Source: Chelydra serpentina
Taxonomy: Eukaryota; Chordata; Testudines; Chelydridae
NCBI GenBank assembly: GCA_037349315.1
Contig: JBAIAC010000033.1
Coordinates: 26,926,001 to 26,990,000 of the forward strand
DNA: 64,000 nucleotides
Direction: 5' to 3'
Shown here: in pieces, positions 19,359 to 55,446 of the stretch
Position numbering within the stretch: the first letter of the stretch is position 1
How the letters are laid out: each line of letters begins with the position of its first letter
The notes under the pieces: generated by a model
Databases searched by the model: none
The model's input: the letters and a program-made list of their open reading frames with translations, nothing else
What the model was told of the DNA's origin: nothing
Position numbers and translations under genes: made by a program

Positions 19359-19797
19359 CAGTAGCGTAGCCGGGGGGGGAGCAGGGGGAGCGGCTGCTCC
19401 CCCTGTGAGGAAAAGCGGCGCTAAGGCGCCGCCCGAGCCCGGCTGCGGAAGCCGGGCTCGGGGGGCGCTTTAAAGGGCCAGCGGCTCCCCGCAGCGGCAG
19501 GAGCCGCCGGCCTTTTAAAGTGTCACCCCCAGCCCCGCTGCCAGAGCTAGGCTGGGGGGGGCGCTTTAAAGGGCCAGCGGCTCCCCGCAGCGGCAGGAGC
19601 CGCCGGCCTTTTAAAGTACCCCCCCAGCCCCGCTGCCGGAGCCGGGCTCGGGCGGGGATTTAAAAGGCCCGGGGGCTCCGCAGCGGCTGGAGCCCCGGGC
19701 CCTTTAAAGCGCCGCTGGGTGAGTACAGGGGGAGCCAGGAGGCGCCTTTTTATAGCACCGCCGCTCCCCCTGTGCTCTAAACCTGGCTACGCCACTG
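19359..19797. mobile_element. GC-rich hAT-like MITE with 95-bp internal repeats
   Basis: The ends are CAGTAGCGTAGCC and GGCTACGCCACTG. The interior is made of about three units of period 94-96 bp, each with GCGCTTTAAAGGGCCAGCGG, GCAGCGGCAGGAGCC and CCTTTTAAAG (units start near 19465, 19561 and 19655). A one-unit relative with a target duplication is at 36130-36365. No duplication is recognisable for this copy. Confidence 0.75.
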
Positions 19798-20865: not shown

Positions 20866-21587
20866 GCTGTACCCTATCTGACTCCTAAGTAGTTGTTGCA
20901 CATGCAGTAGTTAGTCCTGTAGAACACGGCTCACCTTTTTAGCCTTCTGATACTGAACAGAAGATTCACAAGTAAAGTACAAGCAAAAATAACCTGACTG
21001 CAACTCTCCCTGTACACGAAACACCAATGGCAATTTAGCTATAACTTCTATCCACACAAGGCCCCTCCCCACAAGCACCTTGGCAGGCAATAAACGATGG
21101 CTTCAGGTCAGTTGCAAAGTAACAATAAATCTGCCCATGCCTTGGTAGAGAATTCCAAGGATGTTCTCTTTACATACACATCAAGGCATTGTAGCATGGA
21201 CTGGTGATATATTGCAGCTATTCATTCCCAGAGCTGGAGCTTTCTCATCATTTATCTTAATGTCCAACCTAGGCAGGAATTTACGAGATTGTATGGGAGG
21301 CAAATGCATAGCCTTCTCGCTGGAAATTTAACGTGTCTATTGAGTATTTATTCTGCCCTTCTAATGGCTCTAGACAATGTTATTTTCAAACTTCTGAGAG
21401 GTTTGTATGGCAGACACAGCACCTCATGCTGTGATCCCATCAGATCACATGAGCTAAATGGCGATGAACCTAGTCAGTATAGCGACCAGGTCGGTGGTTC
21501 TAACCTTTCTTGCTGATGATTCTCTTGGGAATGATGACAGCTGGACATACCCCGCCTCCCACTCCTTACCCTCAGACAATGTTCTTG
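20866..21587. other. no gene or repeat recognised
   Basis: Nothing recognised. Confidence 0.4.
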
Positions 21588-21788
21588 TGTAACCCACACG
21601 CCTTCTGGGTGTGGTGTTCTGTCCCATCTAGTGGTACCGAGACCACTTAGAAAGAGAGAGTTAAATGAGTCTGCTCTACAGCTTTAGCTAAGAAGCAGTT
21701 GGCTTTTAGCGCATGTGGTAGAGGCTCATGCACTAAGCTCCAGAGATCCCCAGTTCTATCCTGCAAGCCAACAACCAGGGTCTGTCGG
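21588..21788 (+). repeat. 5' LTR of the compact element
   Basis: About 201 bp, with the final GTGTTACA missing, apparently lost between G runs in the LTR and the primer binding site. Shared words with the 3' copy are TGTGGTGTTCTGTCCCATCT, CGAGACCACTTAGAAAGAG and CAGTTGGCTTTTAGC (3' copy CCGTTGGCTTTTAGC). Confidence 0.65.
21698..21772 (+). repeat. tRNA-like segment inside the 5' LTR
   Basis: A 75-nt segment starts GTTGGCT and ends AGCCAAC, a perfect 7-bp closing helix. It holds an A-box-like TTAGCGCATGTGGTAGAGGC and a B-box-like GTTCTATCC; the 3' LTR copy has the better GGTTCGATCCC. The T arm pairs poorly and no convincing anticodon arm was found, so it is a tRNA-derived module, not a functional tRNA gene. 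Confidence 0.55.
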
Positions 21789-21806
21789 GGGGACTCATCT
21801 GGGATT
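21787..21806 (+). promoter_or_regulatory. tRNA-Pro-like primer binding site
   Basis: The segment CTCATCTGGGATT at 21794-21806, preceded by six G, resembles the complement of the 3' end of tRNA-Pro (core CTCGTCCGGGATT). Eleven of 13 bases agree and both differences are at CpG sites. Two extra bases (GA) separate the G run from the core. Confidence 0.5.
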
Positions 21807-21849
21807 CCAACTGGGAAGTCTCTGAAGCTTGGGACACACTTCCTCAGCT

Positions 21850-21857
21850 AGGGGAAG
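21850..21857 (+). promoter_or_regulatory. polypurine tract
   Basis: AGGGGAAG, two bases before the TGTAAC start of the 3' LTR, in the position where plus-strand priming occurs in LTR elements. Confidence 0.5.
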
Positions 21858-21859
21858 TA

Positions 21860-22043
21860 TGTAACCCACACGGGTGTGGTGTTCTGTCCCATCTAGTGGC
21901 ACCGAGACCACTTAGAAAGAGAGATTAACGAGTTTGCTCTACAGCCTTAGCTAACAGCCCGTTGGCTTTTAGCTCATGTACTAAGCCCCAGAGGTCCCAG
22001 GTTCGATCCCACCCGCCAACGACCGGGGTCTGTCAGTGTTACA
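21860..22043 (+). repeat. 3' LTR of the compact element
   Basis: 184 bp. Relative to the 5' LTR it lacks about 7 bp near its start and 17 bp of the tRNA-like D-arm region. The latter gap lies between two CATG words, as expected of a microhomology deletion. It ends CTGTCAGTGTTACA. Confidence 0.65.
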
Positions 22044-24894
22044 CTTGCACACTAACTGCTGCCTTTCTTTCCCGCCCCCCATGTCCACCCTCTTTTCTCC
22101 ACCCTTCTTGTTGTGGTCCTACCCCTTTCCAACCCTGGGGTATTTTGTGCTTGCTTTTTCTTGTTCTTTGTTCCCTGTTGCTTTGTGCCAACTTCTTCCT
22201 ACGTGGCTCCCTTCTCTCTTTCTTTTCCCCCTTTCCTGCCATCCTCCCCTCTTCGCACATTGCCTATTCAAGAGCGGACTATATGCTGCTCTGGAGGAGG
22301 CTGTAGGGTGGAAGGGATGGTGAGTTAAGATGTCTGTGCTTATGGTTGAGCTGAGAGCCACAGGACCAGAGAGAAGGAATTTGGGCTGGCAGGATGCTGC
22401 CTATGCCAGCCAAATGGGCTGCTTTTATAGCCAGCTGCCCTGAGAGCCACCATGGGAGCAGGGAGGGAATGCACCAAGCTACTGGAGAGCCCTTGTCAAA
22501 CATGCCGTAGGCATGTCCCGTCACCTCCTCCTATCGCTGTGCAGTGTGCTGGTGCCACCTGCCCAGCCAGTTACCCCAGAAGTGGCTGCATGTCCGTGGC
22601 ACTGCATATGTGTAGTTTGCAAAGCACTGTGGGGCTCCACTGTGGGAGTTGAAAGTTGACGTATGAATGTAAAATGTGACTGTAAAGAATACATCATTGT
22701 GAAAATAATAGCCAGGTAATGTTGCCTCGTGTGAGGCATTGGGTTGCCAAGTCAATGCCAGAGCGTGTTCAGTTCAACCTGAGGCACCTTTAACTTGCCT
22801 TCCCAGTCGTGCAAAAAAAATCCCACCTTTGGGGATTTCAACAATGAGGTTGTGTCAGCCAGGCCTTGTGCATGTGAGCTACACAAGGTACAATTCTCAG
22901 AGCTGCTTCCACAGGCCCTGTTAGAAGGAAACTCACCGTGTAGGTTTGTTTCTTTTGGAACAAAAGGGACACACTTGAACCCCGCTGCGATAACGTGTCT
23001 GATGCACGTGGTGAGTCTGACAACCAGATAATGGACTCTGCTTAGTGGCCATGTCTGCTGCAGAGTGTAGGTCTTACCAGCCAGCACACTGTCCCCCAGC
23101 AGCATCCTAACAGAAAACACGGGATGAATATTGATGAAATGAAAACCACGGTCCAGCACTTTTCCTGCTAAGTAACCTTGGAGAGAGCCTTACAAGTGAA
23201 TGCCTGTTAAAATCTGCCACTTCATAGGTGTATACGTCTGTATAGCTAGGCTGCATAATGGAATTTGATTGCTAACATGGACACGAGGCAGCTGTAGTCA
23301 ATCGAAATGTTGCCATAGTGGTGGGGTTACATAAAAAAGAAAGATATTACATTTTAGGTCTAGAACCTCGCTTCTTATCTGATCTCATTCTTAGCATTGC
23401 AATAACTTGGCTTCCTGAGATTTTATTGTACAACTGCACCGAAGGGAAACTTAAAACAAGAATCCTGCGAGATAGCATCATAGAAACATAAGGTGGGTTA
23501 TGATTGTTATGAGCTCAGGCACTTCTTGGAGTGAATTTGAATTCTGGGGCAGCTGGCTGGCTCTGGACAGGTCACTGAAATTGGCAGCCTTTTCCTGAGA
23601 CAATGCCTGCGAGTGCTGCCTGAAAAATGGCTCCCGGTGATTAAATGTATGTTCTTAATAGCAGGGAATAGTTGCTAACAGTGAGATCTCTTAGCCTGCA
23701 GAAACCTCCCAGAGTGACGGAGTCATTTATAGCTGACCCGTGCAATTCACTGGAGTACATGCTAGAAAATCCACAAGAGCGAACAATCCTGCGCTGGCCT
23801 CTGAAGAGACACATAGATCTTTGCTCTTCTGTAGTGTCTCTCAGCGGAAGTCATGTGCTTATGTGTGAGTGGATGAAGGGGGAAAGGGAAAGGTGACAAC
23901 AATCCTGTATAGTAGCTGAGACCCCCAATTTTAAGTATAAGGAAGTAGCTCAGATACCACACTATGGTAACTCTTGGCAAATGATGCCTTTAATGCTGCC
24001 CACCATACACAATCACCCCCACACCATTCATGGTGGGCTACTGCTGAAAGGCCAAGGGGAAGAAGTGTGTTTGAGGGAGGGATTTGAATAAAGCAATGGA
24101 GGTTGCTAAGGACAAAAGGACCGGGAGGCAGTTTCGGGTACCAGCGCTGACCTAGCAGGAGATAGGAGTGGGAGAAGGATAGGAACGGGGAGTTCAGAAG
24201 TGTGGCATGGAAGGAGAGCAGGCAGTGGATGGGGGAGCAAACACTGTGCACTGTAAAGAGAGGCAAAGGCTAACACTGACATCTGACTAGCAGAAGACAG
24301 CATAAATGGAAGTATTTTAATTAGGCATTTAATAAATGATCAAATGTAAGTCCCTTCTGATAGAGGGTAATTTGGAAGCCTACCCACTGTTGCAAGAACC
24401 TCCATGGTGGACTGTCACTGGAATGGTTCTATTCAATATTGTCATGTCTGAATGGATTTGTTAATTAAGCGGCTCATTATTTTAATAACCCAGATTGAAA
24501 GGGTGATGAAATAAGTCTGCCGATAAGGTAAGCAGTTCATTGTTCAGACGGAATGTTTGACACGGGCGGAACTTGCTGAATTGCAGACAATTTGTTTCAA
24601 AGTCTATCACCTTACAGTCATATCGCCTTAGGCGGTAAATGGGTCAGAGCTCATGAGCCAACGAGGGTTGGGCTCAGTTAAGTTTCCCAAGAGGAAACCT
24701 CCAAGGAATGCCCAGAGACTGGCCAGAAGAGGGACTGGTGATCCAGTAAGTGGCAGGATTCATTCTGAATCTGTGCTAAGTCAGTGCATCAGCATGGCAC
24801 TGGCTGGGTGCACTGTTCTGCTAGAGATGCTGTCTTTTTATGAGCTGTAGAACTACAACAGCCCTAACTCCTTGCCCTTCAAGAGATGAAGGAT
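22044..24894. other. no gene or clear repeat
   Basis: The pyrimidine-rich part at 22060-22260 produces overlapping open frames on both strands without motifs. Nothing else was recognised. Confidence 0.4.
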
Positions 24895-51995: not shown

Positions 51996-52982
51996 ATATC
52001 TGTAGCCAAGATGGGTGAGGTCATATCAATATCTTTTATTGGACCAACTTCTGTTGGTGAGAGAGACACGCTTTCGAGCTTACAGACAGCCCCACAACCT
52101 GAAGCAACTCACCAGCAACTACACATCACACCACAGAAACACTAATCCAGGAACCAAACCCTGCAACAAACCCCGGTGCCAACTATGTCTGCATATCTAT
52201 TCAAGGGACACCATCATAGGACCTAACCACATCAGCCACACCATCAGGGGCTCGTTCACCTGCACATTTACTAATGTGATATATGCCATCATGTGCCAGC
52301 AATATCCCTCTGCCATGTACATTGGCCAAACCGGACAGTCTCTATGCAAAAGAATAAATGGACACAAATCTGACATCAGGAATTATAACATTCAAAAACC
52401 AGTAGTAGAACATTTCAATCTCCCTGGTCACTCAATAACAGACTTAAAAGTGGTAGTTCTTCAACAAAAAAACTTTAAAACCAGACTCCAACGAGAAACT
52501 GCAGAACTGGAATTAATTTTCACACTGGACACCATCAAATTAGGCCTGAATAGAGACTGGGAGTGGATGGGTCACTACAGAAATTAAATCAATTTGTTAG
52601 TTTTTGTAAAAACAACAAGGAGTACTTGTGGCATCTTAAAGACTAATTTCCCCTTGCTAAATATTCACACCTTCTTGTCAACTGTTTGAAATGGGCCACC
52701 TTGTTTACATTGGCCTCATTAATACTACAAAGGTGATTTCCACTCCTTCTTGTCAACTGTTGAGATTTGCCTACTTCCAACTTAAATGGAATTGGCTCAT
52801 TAGCACTGACCCCCAACTCGGGAAGGCAACTCCTATCGTTTCATATGCTGCGTATTTATACCTCCCTACTGTATGTTCCACTCCATGCATCTGATGAAGT
52901 GGGGTTTAGCCCACGAAAGCTTATGCCCAAATAAATTTGTTAGTCTCTAAAGTGCCACAAGGACGCCTTGTTATTTTTACAG
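51996..52982 (+). mobile_element. Penelope-like element, 5'-truncated, with GIY-YIG region
   Basis: Part A (about 51996-52083) is a reversed terminal piece (TTTTATTGGACCAACTTCTG, GACACGCTTTCGAGCTTACA) of a related Penelope-like family. Part B (52084-52982) is sense: a coding C-terminus with a GIY-YIG endonuclease domain, stop at 52585-52587, an untranslated region, and the terminal block CATCTGATGAAGTGG, CCCACGAAAGCTTATGCCC and AAATAAATTTGTTAGTCTC. The position of the terminal block directly after the endonuclease gene shows that the many short pieces elsewhere in the window are ends of this element. Confidence 0.85.
52015..52587 (+). CDS. Penelope-like GIY-YIG endonuclease remnant (C-terminal part)
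   Basis: The frame is open for 190 codons. The first 23 or so belong to the joined terminal repeat, so the true protein is truncated at its N-terminus and lacks the reverse transcriptase. Visible features are a cysteine cluster CNKPRCQLC (about residues 51-59), the GIY-like block NVIYAIMC, the YIG block AMYIGQTGQSL, the basic-helix KRINGHKSDI with its Arg and His, a conserved Glu in VVEHFNLPGHS, and a late Asn in LGLNRDWEW. In Penelope-like elements this domain nicks target DNA for target-primed reverse transcription. It is probably not expressed. Confidence 0.8.
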   Translation: MRSYQYLLLDQLLLVRETRFRAYRQPHNLKQLTSNYTSHHRNTNPGTKPCNKPRCQLCLHIYSRDTIIGPNHISHTIRGSFTCTFTNVIYAIMCQQYPSAMYIGQTGQSLCKRINGHKSDIRNYNIQKPVVEHFNLPGHSITDLKVVVLQQKNFKTRLQRETAELELIFTLDTIKLGLNRDWEWMGHYRN

Positions 52983-55141: not shown

Positions 55142-55446
55142 CATAGGCGCCGACTCCATGGGTGCTCCGGGGCTGGAGCACCGCACCCACCGGCAAACTT
55201 ACCGGAACACCGGGAGACGTTGCGGGGCCTTGCCCCCGATGCTGGGGAACATTGCATCGGCGTCGGGGGCGGGGCCACGCAACGTCACCCGGCATCGGAG
55301 GTGGGGCCACGCAACGTCACCCGGCATCGGGGGCGGGGCCACGCAACGTCACCCGGCATCGGGGGCGGGGCCCGGCGTTGGGCAGGGCCCCGCCCCCGAC
55401 GCCGGGTTACGGCACCCACGGGCGTCGCTGGAAGTCAGCTCCTGTG
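55142..55446. mobile_element. hAT-type MITE with 32-bp tandem units, perfect 8-bp TSD
   Basis: The duplication CTGACAGG is at 55134-55141 and 55447-55454. The ends are CATAGGCGCCGACTCC and GAAGTCAGCTCCTGTG, an imperfect inverted pair. The interior contains three units of 32 bp, each beginning CCACGCAACGTCACCCGGCA (55275, 55307, 55339), and a CCCCGCCCCCGACGCC fold-back. Confidence 0.82.
55275..55370. repeat. 32-bp minisatellite, three units
   Basis: Unit start CCACGCAACGTCACCCGGCA, with a variable GGGGGCGGGG or GGAGGTGGGG end. It lies inside the MITE at 55142-55446. Confidence 0.9.

Follow-up and report, generated by a model that had tools for sequence, protein, structure and literature searches.

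A 456-bp element with two terminal repeats

The window (the whole stretch of 64,000 nucleotides of Chelydra serpentina DNA that was analysed) contains a 456-bp element at positions 21588–22043, which on inspection of the sequence consists of two direct repeats (long terminal repeats, LTRs) and about 70 bp of internal sequence. The repeats had been reported in an initial annotation of this DNA and were found again, with TGTAACCCACACG at 21588 and at 21860 and the second LTR ending GTTACA at 22043; likewise, CTTG is present on both flanks, as reported. We interpret these flanks as the left (21584–21587) and right (22044–22047) 4-bp target-site duplications, neither with a strand, from the window sequence and the 4-bp rule that holds across the family. 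The span of 21584..22047 originally given to the element is correct for repeats and flanks together, the element proper being 21588–22043.

All parts of the element are on the + strand. The 5′ LTR (21588–21787) has its terminal CGTTACA deleted in the window copy. Within it lies a 75-nt module (21698–21772) with complementary ends, designated tRNA-like on its similarity to tRNAs; the claim that these ends, GTTGGCT and AGCCAAC, form a 7-bp helix holds in that they match perfectly, as checked in the window copy only. The module is headed by a TTTT run (21704–21707) and contains an A-box-like motif, TAGCGCATGTG (21707–21717), and a B-box-like motif, GTTCTATCC (21753–21761, one departure from GWTCRANNC), both assigned on the window sequence and family statistics. 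Next comes the primer-binding site (21788–21805), which in this copy is complementary to the tRNA-Pro 3′ end at all but four positions. It is present right after the first LTR, as described, but this direct contact is peculiar to the window copy, because about nine bases (the LTR-end CGTTACA and a two-base spacer) have been lost at the junction; in the family the site normally starts two bases after the LTR. The polypurine tract CTAGGGGAAG (21848–21857) is followed by TA, and the purine stretch noted before the second repeat was located within it, AGGGGAAG at 21850–21857, the TA directly preceding the 3′ LTR. The latter (21860–22043, TGTAAC...GTTACA) is missing 15 nt of the module within the A-box/D-arm region, so that its module is incomplete, and carries a TTTT run at 21967–21970, the predicted Pol III stop, and an exact B box, GTTCGATCC, at 22001–22009. 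A Pfam search of 10 of the 47 long frames of the window returned only one GIY-YIG match, below the cut-off.

The family in the genome

A 28-base LTR motif, allowing up to 3 mismatches, occurs at 2,817 sites in the genome and in reversed form at none, and 39 other scored genome places match the element at 78–84% identity. Given these 39 matches and the ordered exact boxes beyond shuffles described below, the observation in the window is not due to chance. No family copies were found in IMG/VR viral contigs with an exact 32-base pattern. We collected 45 distinct two-LTR copies, all sharing the internal part and the primer site. Their longest ATG frames have a median of 44 and a maximum of 90 amino acids, indicating that the family has no coding capacity. 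With a U3-only query, 23 of 29 other matches were solo LTRs and 6 had the internal part; in this one sample, then, the count of one-LTR against two-LTR copies that had been proposed as a check favours solo LTRs.

The 18-base tRNA-Pro complement was sought as the best site near the 5′ LTR junction with up to 5 substitutions allowed, and was present in all 45 two-LTR copies with 0–4 substitutions, 60 of the 93 mismatches falling on its two CpG dinucleotides. TTACA is kept before the site in 40/45 copies and with one change in 3 more, and the arrangement of GTTACA followed by a tRNA-Pro site, which the initial annotation had anticipated for intact copies, is therefore common among the 45 copies examined. 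Usual forms are a spacer AG and a purine tract ending GGGGAAG, then TA, before the second LTR. Target-site duplications of two-LTR copies are exact over 4 bp in 17/45 and match at 3 or more of the 4 bases in 30/45, compared with 2/45 for the same test 4 bp further out and 1/45 for an exact match over 5 bp; the 15/45 copies below 3 of 4 bases count against the TRIM reading, though some of their ends may be eroded or misplaced by projection. Among solo LTRs with both ends found, 18 of 21 match at 3 or 4 of the 4 bases. The duplication length is thus 4 bp in solo and two-LTR copies, not 7–20 bp. Insertion sites (47 sites) show a palindromic preference, GTG-CWWG-CAC, of up to 1.05 bits per position.

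Comparison of the two LTRs within copies showed agreement above that of shuffles (p ≤ 0.05) at 10 of 16 variable columns in U3 and at 1 of 20 columns after the module; at one typed U3 site, 23 of 29 LTR pairs agree (16 pairs untyped). Overall, the LTRs of one copy have an identity of 0.849, barely more than LTRs of different copies (0.840; a value reached in 38 of 20,000 permutations is that within copies), which is what a burst would give. The 15-nt stretch missing from the 3′ LTR of the window copy was, in the first set, present in 26/28 5′ LTRs and absent from 18/28 3′ LTRs. In the 16 copies from later queries it was found in both LTRs of 6, in the 5′ LTR only of 4, in the 3′ LTR only of 1 and in neither of 1, the 5′ LTR being untypable in 4, so that among the 12 fully typed it is missing from the 5′ LTR in 2 and from the 3′ LTR in 5. 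Copying without renewal of the LTRs, a possibility raised by the 15-nt difference, was rejected on this weaker asymmetry; since the search had begun with the window copy, whose own LTRs are unequal, the asymmetry appears to be mainly a sampling effect. The stretch is flanked by two GCTCATG repeats, and repeated loss by slippage is consequently the simple account of its absence. In these small numbers the 3′ LTR still shows slightly more losses than the 5′ LTR.

Were the family a SINE, with a tRNA head and mobilised by a LINE, the window copy would be a chance tandem pair. The tRNA-like sequence with A and B boxes, the high copy number and the many single-unit copies (23/29) agree with such an origin, but the tRNA-like part lies in mid-unit and not at the head, single and double copies alike have 4-bp duplications and TG...CA ends, and the 45 distinct copies share an internal part and primer site, which leaves a SINE with next to no credibility. 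The LTR ends showed neither a LINE-type nor an A-rich tail, and no long tandem arrays were detected in 60 + 8 loci over up to about 1.5 kb on each side, two features that had been named as signs against a terminal-repeat retrotransposon in miniature (TRIM). Movement without reverse transcription, as a DNA transposon or a satellite whose ends are short inverted sequences (TGTAAC/GTTACA), is likewise very improbable. The six-base inverted ends and 4-bp duplications would fit Ginger-type integrase-related DNA transposons, and the 15-nt difference of the first set resembled copying without LTR renewal; against this, the primer site and purine tract stand exactly where reverse transcription needs them, the 15-nt asymmetry weakened in later copies, the two LTRs of a copy tend to share their U3 variants, and the 68 loci are free of long tandem arrays. 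The SINE and satellite readings were rejected on duplications, ends and arrangement. A few of the 60 loci carry one further, separate LTR piece.

The tRNA-like module and the predicted life cycle

By its sequence the module is tRNA-like: alignment to 17 tRNA sequences gave a mean score of 28.0, compared with 17.4 for shuffles and 16.4 for a U3 control. ARAGORN, run on the window and 30 family loci, reported no tRNA, Rfam likewise gave none for the window, for the element itself, for 20 of these loci or for a single selected copy, and a true tRNA gene was rejected on these grounds; six single-copy folds gave no cloverleaf. The B box is found in 41/90 LTRs (2.8% of shuffles), the A-box motif alone is moderately enriched (33/90 against 19% of shuffles), and both boxes occur exact and in order in 13/90 LTRs against 0.2% of shuffles. 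That only 13/90 have both exact fits old copies and is no proof of a working promoter. Only one TTTT run of the LTR is regular, and it heads the module. Between the T runs of the two modules, T4 was found in 1/28 copies against 8.3 expected, a depletion within the predicted transcript, whereas A4 runs, counted over whole copies, match expectation (19/45 against 19.1). Taken together, the boxes and T runs suggest that the tRNA-like stretch probably serves as the promoter of the LTR.

We conclude, with a probability of about 0.88, that the window element is a decayed TRIM copy of the Helenus type, with a tRNA-derived internal promoter in its LTRs. Two LTRs, a tRNA-Pro site, a purine tract, 4-bp duplications, a target palindrome, solo LTRs and the lack of coding sequence are all observed, and the TRIM reading of the initial annotation is thus supported. 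In the life cycle that we propose, Pol III would start where the module of the 5′ LTR begins, continue through the primer site and the short internal sequence, and stop at the TTTT run heading the module of the 3′ LTR. As this is the only regular run, the predicted RNA measures about 285 nt and has a GTTGGCTTTT-like repeat of roughly 10 nt at both ends. tRNA-Pro would prime reverse transcription, the short terminal repeat would be used for first-strand transfer, second-strand synthesis would be primed by the purine tract, and an integrase provided in trans, probably by a Ty3/Gypsy element with the same primer site, would trim two bases from each end and insert the DNA. The TTTT of the 5′ LTR, a few bases past the proposed start, is a difficulty that would require read-through. 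We see even chances that a single TTTT run fused to the head of a tRNA-derived promoter is read past just after the start in the 5′ LTR but terminates transcription in the 3′ LTR, thereby setting the repeat of about 10 nt and a constant RNA length of about 285 nt, and that this holds in a vertebrate (tetrapod) lineage not listed before for such elements.

As a candidate for the helper type we identified a Ty3/Gypsy element with a 6,922-bp repeat unit and coding sequence (G000 C4:14237644 onward; loci L103, L105 and L106), including a reverse transcriptase/RNase H piece of Ty3/Gypsy type. It shares with the TRIM the same genome, an exact 18-base tRNA-Pro site and an LTR-like unit that is seemingly TGTAAC...GTTACA, preceded by a purine tract, but differs in its LTR sequence, its spacer (TTTT instead of AG) and its leader. 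The genome holds 373 exact Pro sites not followed by T, from more than one family; the leaders of 6 elements with such sites were not clearly like that of the TRIM (for the best, 23/200 shuffles scored as high). The exact junction of CANN, primer site and TTT occurs at 9 genome sites, of which 8 carry the TRIM internal part and the following U3; this route to a helper was abandoned, the 8 fetched sites all being TRIM copies and the ninth the locus L020.

Two other accounts of expression and mobilisation bear on this scheme. An ordinary TRIM transcribed by Pol II, its tRNA-like stretch a passive passenger such as an old SINE insertion in the LTR, is unlikely, even though the cloverleaf is not kept and every retroelement feature is independent of Pol III. 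The depletion of T4 while A4 is as expected, and the B box in 41/90 LTRs, speak against it; poly(A) signals (AATAAA 1/90, ATTAAA 0/90) and TATA boxes (1/90) are also rare in the LTRs, a weak argument, as few are expected by chance anyway. Gammaretroviruses usually have a tRNA-Pro primer and 4-bp duplications, and a gammaretrovirus-like ERV instead of Gypsy as the mobilising element is a possibility to which we give limited weight. Both of these features, and the origin of the 373 sites from more than one family, would suit such an ERV, but the sole Pro-site family seen with matching LTR-end hexamers has the Ty3/Gypsy-type reverse transcriptase/RNase H piece, and animal Helenus elements were assigned to Gypsy on primer-site similarity in the paper describing them (PMC10886601).

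Relation to known elements

The Pol III-driven TRIM favoured here is of a kind already published. Vertebrate TRIMs with a tRNA-derived LTR promoter had been taken to be not well described; tRNA-containing TRIMs, named Helenus or “TRIMp3”, were reported from fish, invertebrates, fungi and a plant (Kojima, 2024; PMC10886601), and the novelty is accordingly narrower than first held. Their vertebrate hosts include ray-finned fish and the coelacanth, with no tetrapod in the host table, and a zebrafish family comprises 5,575 LTRs (PMC10886601). Among the titles and abstract openings listed in literature searches, none presented such an element from a tetrapod; for a caecilian genome, contigs annotated as TRIMs are reported, with no tRNA claim in the text available (PMC8498967), and a 2026 meeting report mentions Helenus (PMC12859917).

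The turtle family, with thousands of LTRs in the genome, looks like a further member of the Helenus kind, a likeness drawn from published descriptions of features. It has two LTRs within less than 1,000 bp, A and B boxes in the LTRs, a primer site, a purine tract, 4-bp duplications and no coding sequence; Helenus elements, as described (PMC10886601), have two LTRs with tRNA-like A/B boxes, between them a short stretch bearing a primer site and a purine tract, and usually measure less than 1,000 bp; the animal members have 4-bp duplications, and solo LTRs and sometimes high copy numbers occur. The vertebrate Helenus families described there use tRNA-His, -Leu or -Lys as primer whereas the turtle family has a tRNA-Pro site, and those descriptions contain neither a terminator-defined terminal repeat, predicted for the turtle family, nor a target palindrome, seen in it. 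The family would extend the Helenus kind to tRNA-Pro priming in a vertebrate and, with its turtle host, to tetrapods. A single large family shows how a tRNA-type promoter could run an LTR retrotransposon, and the position of its only regular terminator leads to a testable prediction of RNA length and terminal repeat that is absent from the available text of the Helenus paper. The strong palindromic target preference is a fingerprint for identifying the helper integrase. Annotation calls for caution, as such LTRs may be mistaken for SINEs or tRNA pseudogenes.

PbTRIM of the harvester ant (PMC3532108) is likewise a tiny non-autonomous LTR element, but no Pol III-type LTR module is mentioned in its accessible description. 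The precedent cited for a Pol III-type module within an LTR, the plant TRIM Cassandra, is borne out as a comparison, although Cassandra carries 5S rRNA sequence instead of a tRNA and has a plant host. Its transcription starts and stops inside the same module of the two LTRs, giving an 18-bp terminal repeat (PMC10886601), and a short terminal repeat of the same origin is predicted for the turtle element.

The TRIM copy and its family in the genome

The two direct repeats and the flanking CTTG proposed in the initial annotation were both confirmed. The element (window 21588-22043) consists of a 5' LTR at 21588-21787 and a 3' LTR at 21860-22043, with the CTTG duplication at 21584-21587 (left) and 22044-22047 (right). 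Its LTRs display 86% identity over 184 aligned bases, or 77% over 199 columns with gaps counted. The copy is degraded: it has lost the end of the 5' LTR and the two-base spacer ahead of the primer site, as well as 15 nt of the tRNA-like module in the 3' LTR. Elsewhere, the window holds GC-rich tandem repeats at 19432-19709 (96-bp units) and 55258-55372 (32-bp units), and a 193-aa frame at 52006-52584 (+) with a GIY-YIG score of 22.5 bits, just below the Pfam cut-off of 22.6, which may be a gene or a Penelope-like element.

The window's own assembly (2.28 Gb) was searched for related copies. Querying with the element yielded 3,997 first-look candidates; 40 were scored and all 40 matched, the 39 besides the window at 78-84% identity. 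A 28-base motif of U3, the LTR part before the module, occurred 2,817 times (1,390 + 1,427) with up to 3 mismatches, against 0 occurrences of its reversed control under the same limit. In the 45 copies with two LTRs, this rule recovers only 74 of the 90 LTRs, so the figure is probably an underestimate, though of the right order. These copies derive from loci L001-L090, 30 places from each of three listings (40 or 60 listed), of which 57 spanned the whole element and 45 were distinct. Two of the loci on contig C24, L009 and L014, carry one and the same insertion, flanks included, about 8.6 kb apart on opposite strands, an inverted segmental duplication or palindrome. At L042/L080 (C6:13145050) a second LTR copy, inverted, adjoins another copy's truncated 5' LTR; nested insertion or recombination may be the cause. 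Locus L015 also contains a long, nearly perfect hairpin (1087-1184; 63 bits as MIR400, family cut-off 83), likely a hairpin-type mobile element and not a microRNA gene.

The target duplication proved to be 4 bp long, exact in 17/45 two-LTR copies and matching at 3 or 4 positions in 30/45; shifting the test outward by 4 bp gave 2/45, and an exact 5-mer occurred once among the 45. A U3-only query, with 40 matches scored and 30 fetched (one being the window), allowed two-LTR and single copies to be counted: 6 besides the window had an internal part and 23 were single LTRs, among which L086 and L088 appear to be a single insertion that was duplicated, while L073 is incomplete. Both ends were found in 21 of the 23, and 18 of these agree at 3 or 4 of the 4 duplication positions. 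A palindromic preference of about GTG-CWWG-CAC, centred on the duplication and reaching 1.05 bits at one position with an assumed background, emerged from the best 47 sites (30 from two-LTR copies, 17 from solo LTRs), a sample selected for recognisable duplications. Complementary pairs averaged 2.28 of 6 at these sites vs 1.45 in 1,800 random flank 12-mers.

The expected primer site after GTTACA was also borne out, with a spacer as the usual form: GTTACA or ATTACA, then AG, then the 18-base TGGGGGCTCGTCCGGGAT, which we take to be the complement of the tRNA-Pro 3' end. Directly 5' of the primer site, TTACA is intact in 40/45 copies and has one change in 3 more. The site itself has 0, 1, 2, 3 and 4 mismatches in 1, 11, 21, 8 and 4 copies, respectively, its two CpG dinucleotides accounting for 60 of the 93. 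The internal part is typically 74 bp, and the commonest of the 12 end forms listed, CTAGGGGAAG plus TA before TGTAAC, was exact in 15/45. The extra AG and TA would be the bases removed by two-base end trimming by integrase. Exact CANN, primer site and TTT occurred at nine sites in the genome: one is L020, and the eight newly fetched carry the family's internal part and following U3, seven also the 5' LTR.

The tRNA-like module and a predicted Pol III transcript

Modules from 48 of the 90 LTRs, the others being too short or without a recognisable module head, were scored against 17 tRNAs, the best match being kept, with 30 shuffles per copy. The mean score was 28.0 vs 17.4 for the shuffles and 16.4 for U3 of the same LTRs, and 35/48 modules beat all their own shuffles. 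Because the best match varies (Phe 21, Cys 13, Ala 8, others 6), we assign no single parent tRNA. An exact A box followed by an exact B box was present in 13/90 LTRs vs 0.2% of shuffles (B box 41/90 vs 2.8%; A box 33/90 vs 19%). Thus the tRNA-like segment with A and B boxes described initially is upheld by similarity and box enrichment; it does not extend to a tRNA call by ARAGORN (window and 30 loci) or Rfam (window, element, 20 of the loci and one selected copy), nor to a cloverleaf in six single-copy folds. Judged by sequence, the module is a tRNA-derived, promoter-like stretch and not a tRNA gene.

GGCTTTTA was found with at most one mismatch in 80/90 LTRs. More than one T4 run occurred in only 5/90 LTRs, and a T4 in the internal part in 1/45 copies. 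Between the module T runs of both LTRs, T4 was present in 1/28 typeable copies vs 8.3 expected from dinucleotide shuffles, with A4 runs over whole copies at chance level (19/45 vs 19.1). This single regular position and the T4 depletion fit a Pol III start and stop at the module heads. The putative transcript would begin at the head of the 5' LTR module, presumably passing the T run just after the start, and would stop at the T run of the 3' LTR module head, the two marks lying about 282 nt apart (264-295). Its ends would share a repeat of ~10 nt usable for transfer. Poly(A) signals (two forms, 1/90 and 0/90) and TATA boxes (1/90) are scarce in the LTRs; this is weak evidence against Pol II, since few are expected by chance and the counts have no chance control.

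Age of the copies and a candidate helper

The LTRs of a copy differ by a mean K2P of 0.170, falling to 0.142 when CpG positions are left out (n=45). With a reptile substitution rate of ~1e-9 per site and year, the copies are old, roughly 60-90 million years. LTR identity within copies, 0.849, is barely above the 0.840 between copies (within-copy level reached in 38 of 20,000 permutations; n=28, excluding L014 as the same insertion as L009 in a duplicated segment and L015, where the anchors missed the 3' LTR start), a pattern expected after a burst. U3 variants shared by a copy's two LTRs exceeded shuffles in 10 of 16 variable columns (p<=0.05; kappas -0.07 to 0.55), and at one U3 site 23/29 typed pairs agree. 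After the module, agreement exceeded shuffles in only 1 of 20 columns, and the changes, mainly C/T and G/A, presumably reflect decay since insertion. Because U3 variants agree within copies, both LTRs were most likely made together. Copying without LTR renewal was first hinted at by a 15-nt LTR difference; the U3 agreement points the other way. These 15 nt, which lie between GCTCATG repeats and include part of the A box, are often lost from one LTR (L001-L030, L014 again omitted), more commonly the 3' LTR in this first, query-biased set; repeated slippage is the probable cause, leaving over a mild 3' excess.

Exact tRNA-Pro sites without a following T number 373 in the genome (first places listed), and six, picked by next base and strand and not at random, were inspected. 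None of the six has a clearly TRIM-like leader. Two loci of one family, L099 and L103, have GGGTTACA plus TTTT ahead of the Pro site; the remaining four have different ends. About 420 bp upstream of the GGGTTACA end, locus L105 has a purine tract and then TGTAACAC, as does a second locus, L107, so LTRs of this family apparently extend from TGTAAC to GTTACA, the end hexamers of the TRIM, with the LTR start resting on this purine-tract reading. Its duplication is not readable, because purine tract and not genomic flank adjoins the LTR upstream at both loci and L108, the expected end of an intact copy on contig C1, has no such LTR end. Two primer sites enclose a 139-aa piece that matches Pfam PF17919 (5e-29); its nearest solved structures are 4ol8 (1e-7), which we take to be the reverse transcriptase/RNase H of Ty3, and Ty3-G Gag-Pol 7q5b (1e-6), other retroviral-type chains giving 1e-4 or weaker. 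By homology, the piece belongs to a Ty3/Gypsy-type RT/RNase H, which favours, without proving, a Gypsy element as helper, in agreement with Kojima's view linking animal Helenus to Gypsy (PMC10886601). Several Pro sites lie in rows 6.9-7.5 kb apart (C4:14238068, 14244990, 14251912 and elsewhere), which suggests tandem Gypsy-type proviruses sharing LTRs.

Comparison with Helenus and Cassandra

A vertebrate TRIM with a tRNA-derived LTR had initially been regarded as not well described; the kind is already published as Helenus, TRIMs with tRNA-like LTRs in fungi, a lycophyte, invertebrates, coelacanth and ray-finned fishes (PMC10886601). None of the terms turtle, reptile, tetrapod, amniote or mammal appears in the main text of that paper, and no tetrapod member was among the matches listed in the open PMC literature. 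The family described here is best classed as a further member of this known kind. Vertebrate Helenus primers are His, Leu or Lys (PMC10886601), whereas the site here is for tRNA-Pro; the family's own details are the strong target palindrome and the predicted terminator-defined terminal repeat. The start and stop logic would be that of Cassandra, the plant TRIM with 5S rRNA sequence in its LTR, whose terminal repeat is given as 18 bp in PMC10886601, compared with the ~10 nt predicted here.
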